Positions 1-31,447 of a DNA stretch of 31,447 nucleotides are shown here, piece after piece. The stretch's first letter is position 1, and every line of letters begins with the position of its first letter. The notes below the pieces were generated by a model that saw only the letters and a program-made list of their open reading frames with translations, was not told where the DNA came from and did not search any database. The position numbers and the translations under genes are program-made. This stretch comes from a virus, in IMG/VR virus record IMGVR_UViG_3300037961_002605, positions 1 through 31,447 of that record. The stretch is one strand, 5' to 3'.

Positions 1-100
1 GTAGGAATAATTTGAACAGAAGTTACATCCGTTCCAACATTAGATGCTACAACTAAGTTTTCAGGATAAGTTGCTATTATGCAATCGTTTGGCATTCCGG
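1..100. repeat. Direct terminal repeat, left copy
   Basis: Bases 1-100 match bases 31348-31447 except at position 99 (G here, A at 31446). The repeat lies inside the major capsid gene and both copies keep the same reading frame. This is what an assembler leaves when it linearises a circular or circularly permuted genome. The mismatch changes a proline codon CCC to CCT, so it is silent. A true short direct terminal repeat is possible but less likely, because it would cut the capsid gene in two. Confidence 0.9.
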
Positions 101-881
101 GACAAACATAAATTGGATACCCCATGAACGTAAGATTGTCAAAATTTGCCGCCGCACCCAACGCTTGGAAAGTAGTTGCGTTTGCTAGTGCTTGTGCATA
201 TAGGGCATATGTTCCTGTATTCATATAGAAACCAAAACCTGTTTTTCCTACCATTGCACTATTAGTAGTTAATGCTTGATTAAGAACATCATTCATTAAA
301 CCAATAATTGTTCCAACTGCAGGTGCATTTGCAAAATCAACTTCTGCAAAATCTTTACAAGCTGATGCCTCTATACCTGTATCATCAAAGTTTCCATCGT
401 TAGATACAAAACCTATACCATTTGCAGATCCCATCCACAAATTAGTTTCGTATTCTTCCGCCACTTTTGCCGCAGTAAATTCTAATAAATACTTTTCAAA
501 TGTTTGAGGTAGATTACCATTTCTATCCATTCCCTGTCCAATCCATGTTGGAAATACAGTTGAACGACATAATTTTTGATTTACTTGATAATCGTTCAAA
601 GTGATAGTTTCTTCATTTGTTTGGAAATCATCTCCATTCTGCCAATCACAATTTGCCGCTCCAATTAAAGCCGTAGACGACATTCTTATCATTACTGCTT
701 TTGAAGTCAAACCATCTAAAGTTCTAACAAAACCTTTTGCAATAGTATCATTAGATTTTAGTGCCGCATTTAAATAAGGTAACGACAATTCACCCGCATA
801 AGTATCGCCCTGAATATCAGGATTTGCAAATTCGTATCTTTTTGCTAACGACATCTTGTTTAAATTATAATTTTTAGCCAT
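1..881 (-). CDS. Major capsid protein, N-terminal part (continues at 31347 across the join)
   Basis: The frame opens with ATG at 881 (MAKNYNLNKMSLAKRY) and stays open to base 1. On the closed circle it continues at 31347 and stops with TAA at 31239-31241, giving 990 bases and 329 residues. The size, the position just after the scaffold-like and protease genes, and the soluble mixed alpha/beta composition fit an HK97-fold major capsid protein of a Bacteroidota phage. Recognisable stretches include TLDGLTSKAVMIRMSSTALI and, near the join, GYPIYVCPGMPND. The leader before the start is A-rich and has no Shine-Dalgarno motif, as is normal in this phylum. The assignment rests on context and gene order; I could not align it to a capsid family. 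Confidence 0.8.
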   Translation of the reverse strand, partial: MAKNYNLNKMSLAKRYEFANPDIQGDTYAGELSLPYLNAALKSNDTIAKGFVRTLDGLTSKAVMIRMSSTALIGAANCDWQNGDDFQTNEETITLNDYQVNQKLCRSTVFPTWIGQGMDRNGNLPQTFEKYLLEFTAAKVAEEYETNLWMGSANGIGFVSNDGNFDDTGIEASACKDFAEVDFANAPAVGTIIGLMNDVLNQALTTNSAMVGKTGFGFYMNTGTYALYAQALANATTFQALGAAANFDNLTFMGYPIYVCPGMPNDCIIATYPENLVVASNVGTDVTSVQIIP

Positions 882-13702: not shown

Positions 13703-14344
13703 TTATTTTAATGATTCTATTGGTATATTTAATGTTTCTATTATAGCAAACTCCATTACTTTACTTTCATTATCATATCCTAAAACATCTTTTATTTTCA
13801 TTTTTAATTCTAGCCATCTTTTATATGTTTCTTCTGATACTTTTACATTTATAGTTTTATCAAATTTATCATCACTAAATGTATCGCTTAAATCTTCTAC
13901 TTCAAAATTATCCCAATTAAACTCCCCTACTTCTAACATGTTTTTTATTTCATCTTCTGTATATGGTAAAGTTTTTTGTAATTCTTCTATATCAAATTCA
14001 TTATTTAATTCTGTAATAATTTCAGATAATTTTATTGGATCACTTTTAAATTTGGTTTCGTTAGTTTCAATTGCTATTCTACTTGCTTGAGTTTGTGTTA
14101 TCTTTCCAAAATTATAACAATGTGCTTTTTTTAGCTTTAATTCTTTCATAACGTCTAAACGATGATTTCCATTTACTACTTCAAAAAAACCTGTATCTAA
14201 TTCCCTAATTAATAAATTTTCTATTTGTCCGTTTCTTTTTATGTTTTCAGTTAATTTTTCAGTTAGAATTTTGTTTTCTTCTTTGTAATTCCAATCCGCT
14301 TTTACTAATTGTTTTATTTCTACATCTACATATCCTTTTTTCAT
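13703..14344 (-). CDS. ParB/Srx-fold protein next to DpdA
   Basis: This 213-residue protein starts MKKGYVDVEIKQLVKADWNY. It carries a ParB N-terminal-like domain (residues about 1-95) with the 'GQIENLLIREL' strand and the box VVNGNHRLDVMKELK (57-70). The box corresponds to the G.RR-type motif of ParB/Srx folds, here GNHR. The C-terminal part is helical and charged and ends NIPIESLK. Such proteins act as DNA-binding CTPases, nucleases or ATP-using enzymes. Its ATG overlaps the DpdA stop (ATGA), so it is part of the modification cassette. It could bind or sense modified DNA, or regulate packaging; that is inference. Confidence 0.7.
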   Translation of the reverse strand: MKKGYVDVEIKQLVKADWNYKEENKILTEKLTENIKRNGQIENLLIRELDTGFFEVVNGNHRLDVMKELKLKKAHCYNFGKITQTQASRIAIETNETKFKSDPIKLSEIITELNNEFDIEELQKTLPYTEDEIKNMLEVGEFNWDNFEVEDLSDTFSDDKFDKTINVKVSEETYKRWLELKMKIKDVLGYDNESKVMEFAIIETLNIPIESLK

Positions 14345-15207
14345 ATTATTGTTTTTAATGGTTCATAATTGTAATACTTATTGTTTATGTGTTTATTTAA
14401 TTTATTGTATGCTTTTGCACATAAATATAAGTTTCTGTGATAATCTTTTTCTCCTCTTGTAAATTTCATATGTTTATATTTATTAAAATACGATTTCCAA
14501 GTATTAGTATGTATATTCAATCCTGTTATTTTATTACCATTAAAATAAAAACCCGTTCCATATTTAACACTACTCATCCAACTTGTTGAATCACAAGAAT
14601 AATATCCTTTTTGTTCCATTAAATTTTGTTGTGTGCAGCCTAATAAATGTATTTTTATATTTGGGTTTATTTTATTAGCTAATAACACTAATTGCTTAAT
14701 TGTTTTTTCTATATTACTTTTACCTTTTAACACTATTCTCATTTCAGGAACAGAAATTGCGATATATGGATAATTTTTACATAATTGCCTAAAACCTTTT
14801 TCTCCTTCCTCTACATGCCAAACATAAATTGTTTTATCTAAATCATAATGTTTTTTAAATATGGCTCTAAATCTTTTTAAACTTTCTAATCCTAAAACCT
14901 TATGCACATCCATTTCCACTATATAATGATTGTAATTAATAGTTTTTAAATCTTTTAGATATTTATAAGTGTATTCTAATAAATCATCTTCTGTATATGT
15001 TTTGTCGGATCCTGCTCCAAACATCATCGTAAACAATCCACTATCCATGATCCAATCAAGATTTCTAGTTTTATTATACCATTCTAGCCAACTAGGTAAA
15101 AATTTATCTTTATGTTTCCAATATGAAGTAAGCATTGATGGATGTCCCGCTTTGTATATTGGCTCAATATGATAGTCCATGTCTGCTCCTGCTAAAAATA
15201 GTTTCAT
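14341..15207 (-). CDS. dpdA: DpdA-like DNA 7-deazaguanine transglycosylase
   Basis: This 288-residue protein has the spaced motifs of the tRNA-guanine transglycosylase fold in its DNA-acting branch. They are MDSGLFTMMFG (D55 in the 'DSG.F' box that holds the base), IVEMDVHKVLG (D100), YVWHVEEG (128-135), YIAISVPEMR (148-157), KIHLLGC (185-191) and SCDSTSWMSSVKYG (D206, the likely nucleophile). The role would be to remove guanine from phage DNA and insert a 7-deazaguanine base. It is short compared with bacterial TGT (about 370-400 residues) and I saw no zinc-binding Cys/His cluster at the C-terminus, as expected for phage DpdA types. It overlaps the QueD-like gene by four bases. The subfamily (DpdA1-4) cannot be settled by eye. 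Confidence 0.82.
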   Translation of the reverse strand: MKLFLAGADMDYHIEPIYKAGHPSMLTSYWKHKDKFLPSWLEWYNKTRNLDWIMDSGLFTMMFGAGSDKTYTEDDLLEYTYKYLKDLKTINYNHYIVEMDVHKVLGLESLKRFRAIFKKHYDLDKTIYVWHVEEGEKGFRQLCKNYPYIAISVPEMRIVLKGKSNIEKTIKQLVLLANKINPNIKIHLLGCTQQNLMEQKGYYSCDSTSWMSSVKYGTGFYFNGNKITGLNIHTNTWKSYFNKYKHMKFTRGEKDYHRNLYLCAKAYNKLNKHINNKYYNYEPLKTII

Positions 15208-15524
15208 AATTTAATTTCTGCTCCGTTTTCGTTATCTTCTAATACCTTACAATAATTTAATTTAAACTGATCCATTAAAACTCTTGCGATCATTTCACAA
15301 CTCATTGTTCCAAAGTTTGATTTGTATGTTTTATCTAACCACTGAAGGATCTTGTTTTTAAACATTATAATTTCTATATCTCTATCATCATGACTAACTT
15401 CTTTTTTACATGTTATATAAAAAGTGTGTCGGTGCATATCTTTTAAATACTTTACTTCTTCAAGTGGACAATCTGCCCAACAATGGACACCCGCATATTG
15501 TAATTTAACTATTATGTTTGTCAT
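15204..15524 (-). CDS. Diverged QueD-like (T-fold) protein, candidate CDG decarboxylase
   Basis: The 106 residues align by eye with QueD. LQYAGVHCW (H14) matches the first zinc His, HRHTFYI (H31, H33) matches HGHTYYI, TMSCEMIARVL matches TSAENL, and VLEDNENGAEI matches the terminal catalytic Glu region. The LDHG motif of true QueD is missing, and the Cys nearest the HxH (C19) is farther away than in QueD. A separate intact QueD is at 17087-17506, so this copy probably does something else. With DpdA but no QueC, decarboxylation of 7-carboxy-7-deazaguanine (the function predicted for DpdL in the literature) is the best guess. It overlaps both neighbours by four bases. Confidence 0.65.
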   Translation of the reverse strand: MTNIIVKLQYAGVHCWADCPLEEVKYLKDMHRHTFYITCKKEVSHDDRDIEIIMFKNKILQWLDKTYKSNFGTMSCEMIARVLMDQFKLNYCKVLEDNENGAEIKL

Positions 15525-16393
15525 TTATTATTATGTATTTGCATTATTTCGTTTCTTGCTTTATCATCTTCTTTGAATATACCTCTCATAATTGAGGTGG
15601 TAGTCCATGTATTATGTTTTTTAACTCCTCTCATTTCCATACACATATGTTTAGCTTTTAAAATAACCGCTACTCCTCGTGGTTGTAATTCTTTTTCTAA
15701 AAAATCTGCTACTTGCATTGTGATCCTTTCTTGGTTTTGTAATCTTCTCGCAAATGTTTCTAATGTTCTTGCCAATTTACTTAAACCGACAATCCTTTTA
15801 TTAGGAATATATGCTATTGTTCCATGTCCAAAGAACGGTGCAATATGATGTTCGCATAAAGAGTGAAAAGGTATATTATTTTGAACTATCATTTCATCAT
15901 ATCCTTCGCCTTCAAATGTTGTGCAATTCCATTTCGGAGGACTTAAAAACTCTTTAAAGAATTTTACATATCTTTTTGGTGTATCTTGTAAACCCTCTCT
16001 TGTTGCATCTTCTCCAAAGTATTCTAATAATCGTATAACATTTTCTTCAACTTCTTTATCTCCACTATTCTCCCATGGAAATTCAAGCCATTTACCTTTG
16101 TATTCTTTTTCTCTTTTATCAAATAAAAAATAGAAATCAGCATTCGGATACTTCTTTTTCCACTTTTCATATGTTGTTCCACTATCGTATAAATCATCAA
16201 CAATAATGTCTGCTTGTTCAGGATCTTCTACTACCTGAATTTTTTCATTACAAAAACCCAACATACCAACTACCACCTGTCCACCTCTTGGTATTCCATA
16301 TGCTTTATGTTTTTTATTCTCTAATTGGTTAAGAATTTTATCTATTTGTAGATATATTTCTTCCCACTTTAAACTCCTGTTGTTTGATTCCAT
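15521..16393 (-). CDS. folE: Phosphoribosyltransferase-GTP cyclohydrolase I fusion
   Basis: The protein is 290 residues. Residues 1-108 are a purine-type phosphoribosyltransferase: IPRGGQVV (34-41), the PRPP loop IIVDDLYDSGTTY (63-75) and KWLEFPWE (101-108). Residues 115-275 are GTP cyclohydrolase I: TPKRYVKF (138-145), LCEHHIAPFFGHG (C180, H182, H183), GLSKLARTLE, RRLQNQERIT (217-226) and AKHMCMEMRGV with C251. All zinc ligands are present. The FolE half should convert GTP to dihydroneopterin triphosphate, the first step to 7-deazaguanine. The first domain may salvage guanine. It overlaps QueE by 25 bases. It is one reading frame, so not an artefact of two genes. Confidence 0.88.
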   Translation of the reverse strand: MESNNRSLKWEEIYLQIDKILNQLENKKHKAYGIPRGGQVVVGMLGFCNEKIQVVEDPEQADIIVDDLYDSGTTYEKWKKKYPNADFYFLFDKREKEYKGKWLEFPWENSGDKEVEENVIRLLEYFGEDATREGLQDTPKRYVKFFKEFLSPPKWNCTTFEGEGYDEMIVQNNIPFHSLCEHHIAPFFGHGTIAYIPNKRIVGLSKLARTLETFARRLQNQERITMQVADFLEKELQPRGVAVILKAKHMCMEMRGVKKHNTWTTTSIMRGIFKEDDKARNEIMQIHNNK

Positions 16394-17103
16394 ATTATTA
16401 TTTGTAATCTAGTTGAAAAATTAAAACCATGTTTTAAACACAATTCTACTACTTCTGGGGTATTATCACTTAATTCGTCTATATCGCTCGCAGAAGGCAT
16501 TAAATACACTTTATTTGGAAAGATATTGCATTTATCTATTATGTTTAATATCTCTTGCATGTCTTCTTGTCTACTAACTACGAATTTAAATATACTTCTT
16601 GTTAAATTTAAAAAATTCAATGTATCGGGCTTGTATCTCCTCTTTAAATCTTCTCCGCTATTTGATAATTTAGGGCTACAATTATACAAATCTATGTAAG
16701 TAAACAATTTTCCTTTTGGTGTTATTGTTCCGTTTGTTTCTATTTCAATAAAAGGTTTATATCCTAAAAAATCTACCAACATTTCAATAAAAGGTTCTAA
16801 AGATTTTTGTTGTAGTAATGGCTCTCCTCCCGTTATTATTAAATGTGCTCCATTATAAAATTCTTTTTCATATGCCATTAATTCTGCAACTACTTCTTCA
16901 ATAGGTAAATTTCTTCCTGTTCTCCAAACTTCTATACTATCACATCTCCAAGTTGCTCCATTATGTAGTTTTTTATCCTTTTCAGTTCCTCTACCACCAC
17001 ACATCAAATTACATGCTGTTAATCTTAAAAAAACTGCAGGTATACCCATTGTTTTACCTTCTCCCTGTAAAGAGAAAAAGTGTTCACTAATTGCTAATTT
17101 CAT
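16369..17103 (-). CDS. queE: 7-carboxy-7-deazaguanine synthase (QueE), radical SAM
   Basis: This 244-residue protein starts EHFFSLQGEGKTMGIPAVFL after six residues, the standard QueE N-terminus. The cluster-binding cysteines are C31 and C35 (ACNLMC) and C54 (ATWRCDSIEVW). They are separated by an insertion of about 16 residues relative to the common CX3CX2C form. The SAM motif ITGGEPLLQ (90-98) and IEIETNGT follow. The enzyme makes CDG from carboxytetrahydropterin. It overlaps QueD upstream by 17 bases and the FolE fusion downstream by 25. The Cys spacing is unusual but all three ligands are present, so it is likely active. Confidence 0.88.
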   Translation of the reverse strand: MKLAISEHFFSLQGEGKTMGIPAVFLRLTACNLMCGGRGTEKDKKLHNGATWRCDSIEVWRTGRNLPIEEVVAELMAYEKEFYNGAHLIITGGEPLLQQKSLEPFIEMLVDFLGYKPFIEIETNGTITPKGKLFTYIDLYNCSPKLSNSGEDLKRRYKPDTLNFLNLTRSIFKFVVSRQEDMQEILNIIDKCNIFPNKVYLMPSASDIDELSDNTPEVVELCLKHGFNFSTRLQIIIWNQTTGV

Positions 17104-17506
17104 ATGTCACAATACTTGATGTCGTTTCCTGTAATGTTATTTTCTTTATTGGTAAGTGTTCTGATACTTTATTATATATAAATTTGCATAAATTTTCTGC
17201 ACTAGTAACATCTTCCATTATAGTTAATTTTAAAGATGTTTTTTCTGTTTTCATAAAATCGTTAAGATATTTTAATAATGGATCGTTGTTATGTATTAGT
17301 AATCCATGATCAAGTTGTTTTATAATAGGATCCACAACATCATCTATATCGCTAAATAAAAAAGTTATTCCTGTTTTTGGATTATAATTAAATTCAAATT
17401 GCATTGTTATATAATATGTGTGACCATGTAAATTACTACACTTATCATTTAAATTTTCGTTTCTATGTCCTGCGTAAAAATGGTATTTCTTTTCTATGTT
17501 ATACAT
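17087..17506 (-). CDS. queD: 6-carboxytetrahydropterin synthase (QueD)
   Basis: This 139-residue protein has all QueD elements. They are HFYAGHR (H14), CSNLHGHTYYI with catalytic C23 and zinc ligands H27 and H29, LDHGLLIH (D66, H67), the TSAEN box (101-105) and LQETTSS (E127). It converts dihydroneopterin triphosphate to 6-carboxytetrahydropterin for QueE. It is the first gene of the modification cassette in the direction of transcription, 60 bases after the Cys-rich 127-residue gene. The start is the ATG preceding YNIEKKYHFYAGH. Confidence 0.9.
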   Translation of the reverse strand: MYNIEKKYHFYAGHRNENLNDKCSNLHGHTYYITMQFEFNYNPKTGITFLFSDIDDVVDPIIKQLDHGLLIHNNDPLLKYLNDFMKTEKTSLKLTIMEDVTSAENLCKFIYNKVSEHLPIKKITLQETTSSIVTYEISN

Positions 17507-31238: not shown

Positions 31239-31447
31239 TTATGCATGAACAGAAGATCCGAATACTCCATCAGTTGGAATACCTACTCCAACCCCGTAAG
31301 CCCATCTCATAACAATTCTAACTTGATCACTTCCATCGTATTGATACGTAGGAATAATTTGAACAGAAGTTACATCCGTTCCAACATTAGATGCTACAAC
31401 TAAGTTTTCAGGATAAGTTGCTATTATGCAATCGTTTGGCATTCCAG
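31239..31447 (-). CDS. Major capsid protein, C-terminal part (continues from base 1)
   Basis: This is the 3' end of the capsid gene whose start is at 881. The unique part is 31239-31347; 31348-31447 duplicates bases 1-100. The tail reads MPNDCIIATYPENLVVASNV and ends GVFGSSVHA. The ATG at 31442 is an internal methionine, not a start. A 9-bp hairpin follows the stop at 31204-31229, so the head transcript may be attenuated here. Confidence 0.8.
   Translation of the reverse strand, partial: GMPNDCIIATYPENLVVASNVGTDVTSVQIIPTYQYDGSDQVRIVMRWAYGVGVGIPTDGVFGSSVHA
31348..31447. repeat. Direct terminal repeat, right copy
   Basis: This is the second copy of the sequence at 1-100, with one mismatch at 31446. 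Joining base 31347 to base 1 gives a circle of 31,347 bp and restores one uninterrupted capsid reading frame. Confidence 0.9.

Follow-up and report, generated by a model that had tools for sequence, protein, structure and literature searches.

The 31,447-base virus record IMGVR_UViG_3300037961_002605, analysed in its entirety and referred to here as the window, carries a six-gene 7-deazaguanine DNA modification cassette on its minus strand at positions 13703−17506. Within this cassette, a 106-amino-acid (aa) protein with the fold of QueD occupies the position that QueC takes in related cassettes. We conclude that this protein is probably a decarboxylase of 7-carboxy-7-deazaguanine (CDG), and that the cassette would make free 7-deazaguanine (DG), which the transglycosylase DpdA would swap for guanine, leaving 2′-deoxy-7-deazaguanosine (dDG) in the phage DNA. 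Below, we call the 106-aa family DpdL as a working name, on the assumption that it corresponds to the published DpdL.

The QueC position of the cassette

No match to QueC (PF06508) was found in the whole record, so that a preQ0/G+ pathway was not assigned, and because the genome is closed this absence is real. A preliminary description of the sequence had reported that QueC and amidotransferase genes were missing, which holds for the closed ~31-kb genome. DpdA loci typically show the order ParB, DpdA and then either QueC or the 106-aa protein, with QueD, QueE and FolE nearby. Among 47 loci containing both DpdA and QueE, the 106-aa protein was present in 22, QueC in 19, neither in six and both in none (p = 2.6e-8). 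Whole-record searches of 48 longer viral records with QueE also showed exclusion: the 106-aa protein was present in 20, a clear QueC in ten and both in none (p = 0.003), whereas two of these records had both once weak QueC matches were included (p = 0.011). QueE was found in 35 of the 38 long records bearing the 106-aa protein, and QueC above the cut-off in none of them. Ten of 11 isolate phages with the 106-aa protein had no QueC above the cut-off, the exception being a weak partial match in Vibrio D479, and QueC was present in all seven isolates examined that lacked the 106-aa protein. Shared ancestry does not explain this exclusion, since a tree of 85 DpdA proteins shows several changes between the QueC and DpdL states; the sister DpdA proteins of loci L150 (QueC) and L153 (DpdL), joined with 100/100 support, stand in opposite states. 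Judged by its distribution among sequenced loci, the 106-aa family is an alternative to QueC at the CDG branch point. The comparison tests the role of the small QueD-fold protein, which occupies the QueC position and never accompanies a clear QueC.

Several points weigh against the decarboxylase assignment or the counts behind it. In two of the 20 DpdL records a weak QueC match exceeded the cut-off (24 bits), while the partial match in Vibrio D479 reached 33 bits; all of these are probably other ATP pyrophosphatases. The contigs in the counts are mostly fragments, and when the QueE loci were scored on their flanks alone the exclusion failed to reach significance (p = 0.35), probably owing to the number of short contigs. 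Moreover, mutual exclusion marks the 106-aa protein and QueC as alternatives, not which reaction is catalysed.

The AlphaFold2 model of the 106-aa protein (predicted local distance difference test score, pLDDT, 96.9) best matched E. coli QueD, with Z 12.5 over 103 residues, and the sequence had no PTPS Pfam match. Three histidines are kept at the zinc-ligand positions of QueD, H14 being matched by motif rather than by exact column, and the alignment also retains the glutamate that anchors the pterin ring in QueD-type enzymes. Although the zinc triad and the fold remain, the catalytic Cys and the Asp-His dyad of QueD are absent from the whole family. Its invariant residues are H14, H31, H33, H45, R48, E51, S75-C76-E77 and E96, of which H45, R48, E51 and S75-C76-E77 are peculiar to it relative to QueD. 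No ATP, folate or S-adenosylmethionine (SAM) binding motif was apparent in the 106 residues. The preliminary description had taken the protein for a second QueD-like protein: the resemblance in fold was borne out, but a role as a second QueD was rejected for want of the catalytic residues, and the protein belongs to a distinct family that replaces QueC. A full QueD is present elsewhere in the cassette (17087−17506).

Homologues of the 106-aa protein were also seen in other settings. The DpdL domain is C-terminal in longer proteins of Chryseobacterium phage MA9V-3 (L007:5165-6046) and Vibrio phage Bakedbeans (L011:5218-6369). A Paractinoplanes ferrugineus chromosome (L194:8986-16244) carries a homologue near FolE, QueD, QueE, a phosphoribosyltransferase, a methyltransferase and a PfkB kinase, with no QueC seen, and the product of this actinobacterial cluster is perhaps a decarboxylated pyrrolopyrimidine nucleoside. 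The homologue lies near a QueD homologue in the Magnetospirillum contigs L180, L181, L183 and L184, and accompanies FolE and QueD in the possibly viral contigs L186 and L177, binned as Nitrosarchaeum and Nitrosotalea.

Proposed pathway and competing readings

In the pathway that we propose, FolE would convert GTP to dihydroneopterin triphosphate, from which QueD would make carboxytetrahydropterin and QueE in turn CDG. QueC converts the carboxylate of CDG through the amide to the nitrile in an ATP-driven reaction; in its place, the 106-aa protein would remove the carboxyl group to give DG. DpdA would then insert DG into phage DNA after replication and release guanine, generating dDG. The ParB-like protein probably aids the action of DpdA on DNA. 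The Gpt-like phosphoribosyltransferase (PRT) fused to FolE probably returns the released guanine through GMP to GTP for its FolE partner, a recycling suggested by the fact that every base exchange frees one guanine. Decarboxylation is the simplest reaction to expect of a small zinc-type protein that shows no evident cofactor site and stands at the QueC branch, and the base is more likely DG than CDG because the family takes the place of QueC. The 106-aa protein lies next to DpdA, with no QueE in the whole record, in Faecalibacterium phage Roos, the sole one known to be complete, and in six further records, an arrangement that fits a protein converting host CDG to the DpdA substrate and would not fit a second QueD.

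Most of the chemistry in the preliminary description holds; for the base, it had expected CDG or a direct derivative. CDG itself is disfavoured here, and the decarboxylated base is still a direct derivative; dDG was among the nucleosides listed there for detection by liquid chromatography–mass spectrometry. Its suggestion that the modification serves against restriction also appears likely. If plain DG is made, guanine would be disguised by losing just N7, an atom contacted by many restriction enzymes, with no bulky group added. Cui and colleagues reportedly found dDG and the corresponding CDG nucleoside (dCDG) in phages in 2023 and are said to have predicted a CDG decarboxylase, DpdL, which may be the 106-aa family.

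Four other readings were weighed against decarboxylation. DpdA might insert CDG itself, the 106-aa protein being merely a CDG carrier or a partner of DpdA. A closed genome without QueC, amidotransferase or reductase would agree with this, as would the position of the 106-aa gene beside DpdA in 38 of 39 loci, which is what would be expected of a partner, and dCDG is reportedly a known phage base. However, the zinc triad together with the new invariant polar residues H45, R48, E51 and C76 looks enzymatic, and the family also occurs in phages with another type of transglycosylase, for example ACP17, which makes this reading unlikely. We give distinctly less weight to a 106-aa enzyme that turns CDG into some other derivative, for example an amide or an ester, for insertion by DpdA. 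The branch point is indeed CDG, and QueF and QueF-like, which are related to the protein by fold, work on substituents at C7, but a protein with none of the above cofactor motifs would best fit cofactor-free chemistry, as in decarboxylation.

Completion of the pathway by a host QueC, leaving preQ0 or 7-amido-7-deazaguanine (ADG) in the phage DNA, would draw on an enzyme found in many bacteria, and host help for phage pathways has been discussed (Hutinet et al. 2019, PMC6884629). Yet a different conserved protein fills the QueC slot, and a sibling phage described below, L284, retains its own QueC, so we consider this reading very improbable. Least probable of all, to the point of being barely credible, is that the genes boost queuosine in host tRNA with no modification of DNA. 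QueD and QueE do serve that synthesis too, but the transglycosylase falls in the 9g DpdA family, a member of which modifies DNA (PMC6884629), it has a ParB-like neighbour, and the cassette halts before preQ0. Decarboxylation of CDG to DG thus remains the reading that we prefer.

Cassette genes and genome closure

The features of the window, with gene names drawn from Pfam, PHROGs and NCBIfam searches, are as follows.

17087..17506, minus strand: QueD, 6-carboxytetrahydropterin synthase, 139 aa (PTPS Pfam 1e-25; Cys, HGH zinc motif, LDH dyad and ET glutamate kept)
16369..17103, minus strand: QueE, CDG synthase, radical SAM, 244 aa (phrog_2076 5e-57; PDB QueE 4njg 2e-9)
15521..16393, minus strand: PRT-FolE fusion (Gpt-like phosphoribosyltransferase at about residues 1−112; GTP cyclohydrolase I at 113−287)
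15204..15524, minus strand: protein of QueD fold at the QueC position, proposed as CDG decarboxylase (DpdL), 106 aa (phrog_17812, an unnamed PHROG)
14341..15207, minus strand: DpdA, 9g-type DNA guanine transglycosylase by family profile, 288 aa (phrog_887 "queuine tRNA-ribosyltransferase" 9e-26)
13703..14344, minus strand: ParB-like protein, conserved DpdA neighbour (phrog_723 3.5e-22)
1..98, no strand: terminal direct repeat, left copy (identical to 31348−31445; genome closure)
31348..31445, no strand: terminal direct repeat, right copy (identical to 1−98)

All six open reading frames (ORFs) were found where the preliminary description had placed its tightly overlapping genes, with successive overlaps of 4, 4, 4, 25 and 17 bases. 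They are transcribed in the order QueD, QueE, PRT-FolE fusion, 106-aa protein, transglycosylase and ParB-like protein, and the terminase genes follow directly. The cassette takes up 3804 of ~31,347 bases, the 12% of the genome noted earlier. An identical gene set in the same order recurred in independent contigs, completely in L002, L102 and L103 and partially in L001 and L003; because of this recurrence, the set lies far beyond chance.

The earlier view of a self-contained CDG pathway with DpdA was supported by family matches for FolE, QueD and QueE and by the tRNA-guanine transglycosylase (TGT) fold of DpdA. QueD has the zinc histidines, catalytic Cys, Asp-His dyad and Glu expected of its family (C23, H27, D66, H67 and E127 invariant in alignment A7; H14 and H29 present in the window protein). 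In QueE, the radical SAM Cys cluster C31, C35 and C54 and the GGEP motif (T91-G92-G93-E-P95) of a CDG synthase are conserved in alignment A4. The FolE domain matched at 2.5e-65, scoring 219.7 bits against a curated cut-off of 27 and, with TIGR00063, 203 against 181.6. The fusion of this domain to a PRT had been recognised before; the Gpt-like nature of the PRT was not part of that description. The PRT domain resembles xanthine-guanine PRT (8.6e-6 in a profile search and, weakly, 0.015 in PDB), and its phosphoribosyl pyrophosphate motif VDDLYDSGTT is intact. The fusion also occurs in NP1, MMDA13, PSASB_03 and others, in both QueC and 106-aa cassettes, and in phage BUCT-ZZ01 a free-standing xanthine-guanine PRT adjoins QueE. 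Among the papers searched, none was found to describe DpdL or the PRT-FolE fusion.

The AlphaFold2 model of DpdA, built with 52 aligned sequences, had a mean pLDDT of 94.5, and its best matches among solved structures were TGTs (Z 17.6 over 263 residues, root mean square deviation 3.8 Å); the top Foldseek match was also a TGT. By this model DpdA has a TGT fold; the lack of a TGT barrel at 14341−15207, which the preliminary description had named as grounds for refutation, was not seen. A search with the DpdA family profile (A6), of the kind proposed in the preliminary description, retrieved DpdA of phage 9g at 2.6e-21 and that of NP1 at 3e-22, and it is the former match that, at the level of sequence, makes the transglycosylase a 9g-type DpdA. 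DpdA2 of the nt-1 type was ruled out, because the profile finds 9g DpdA, whereas Hutinet et al. (2019, PMC6884629) report that 9g DpdA does not detect the DpdA2 of nt-1. The residues D55-S-G, E98, D100, H187, D206 and S207 were invariant over 52 rows; for the TGT catalytic and base-pocket aspartates D102, D156 and D280, a profile comparison of DpdA with a single TGT sequence aligned the D55-S-G motif alone, and weakly. In 56 of 80 loci, a ParB-like gene stood no more than 700 bp from DpdA; by comparison, one was present in 58 of 80 DpdA loci and in 8 of 80 loci collected through the 106-aa protein. The ParB-like protein probably has a part in bringing DpdA to DNA. Fusobacterium phage phiFN37 (L005:4054-11410) has three ParB-like genes and a transporter of queuosine precursors alongside DpdA.

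IMG/VR labels the record as linear, which suggested a fragment, a possibility ruled out by the 98-bp direct repeat at the two ends. A gene at 881..3 runs out of the left end and resumes in frame from the right end to 31239, encoding a single protein of ~329 residues. Because of the terminal repeat and this gene in frame across the joint, the record is a closed phage genome of ~31,347 bases (about 31.35 kb). Relatives found by terminase are often contigs of ~30–33 kb. A Bacteroidota host is likely, since the closest isolate terminases are those of Bacteroides and Phocaeicola phages; a Bacteroidota-type promoter motif showed no excess over chance. The structural region encodes a 1096-aa protein (5189−8479) with no PHROG match and no similarity to 50,697 phage records.

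The sibling phage L284 and known systems

A sibling phage that the preliminary description did not include, L284 (IMGVR_UViG_3300030090_004833), shares 94.7% DNA identity with the window over 9.1 kb, a 99.7% identical TerL and near-identical structural genes. At the same site it carries a cassette (L284:148-3565) in which QueC, QueF and a divergent DpdA replace DpdL and DpdA. Identity is 96% at the end of QueE, 75% for PRT-FolE and only 63% for ParB. By this comparison, the exchanged block is DpdA together with the enzyme making its base, and the divergence extends into FolE and ParB. From its gene content, L284 should make preQ1, giving dPreQ1 in its DNA, and the window something else from CDG. 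We tentatively suggest, with slightly less than even confidence, that phages alter their DNA base chemistry by swapping the CDG-branch enzyme and the matching transglycosylase while keeping the upstream genes, that the window and L284 form a near-isogenic dDG versus dPreQ1 pair, and that the fused Gpt-like PRT recycles DpdA-released guanine into GTP for FolE. With two near-identical phages that differ in tail module, one could directly compare the restriction systems that each base withstands, and ask whether each DpdA is matched to its own base.

Among known systems, the 9g-type DpdA pathway phages 9g, NP1, PSASB_03 and MMDA13 (PMC6884629) have QueD, QueE, FolE and a homologous DpdA in common with the window, and the last three share its PRT-FolE fusion. 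All four have QueC or Gat-QueC where the window carries the 106-aa protein. The same 106-aa family occurs with QueE and FolE and no clear QueC in Cellulophaga phage phiST, Acidovorax phage ACP17, Xanthomonas phage X1 and Chryseobacterium phage MA9V-3. In all four of these phages, however, the transglycosylase was not found with phrog_887, nor, in phiST, ACP17 and X1, with the window DpdA profile. Phage Roos resembles the window in its adjacent DpdL and 9g-type DpdA, but with no QueE in its genome it must rely on host CDG.

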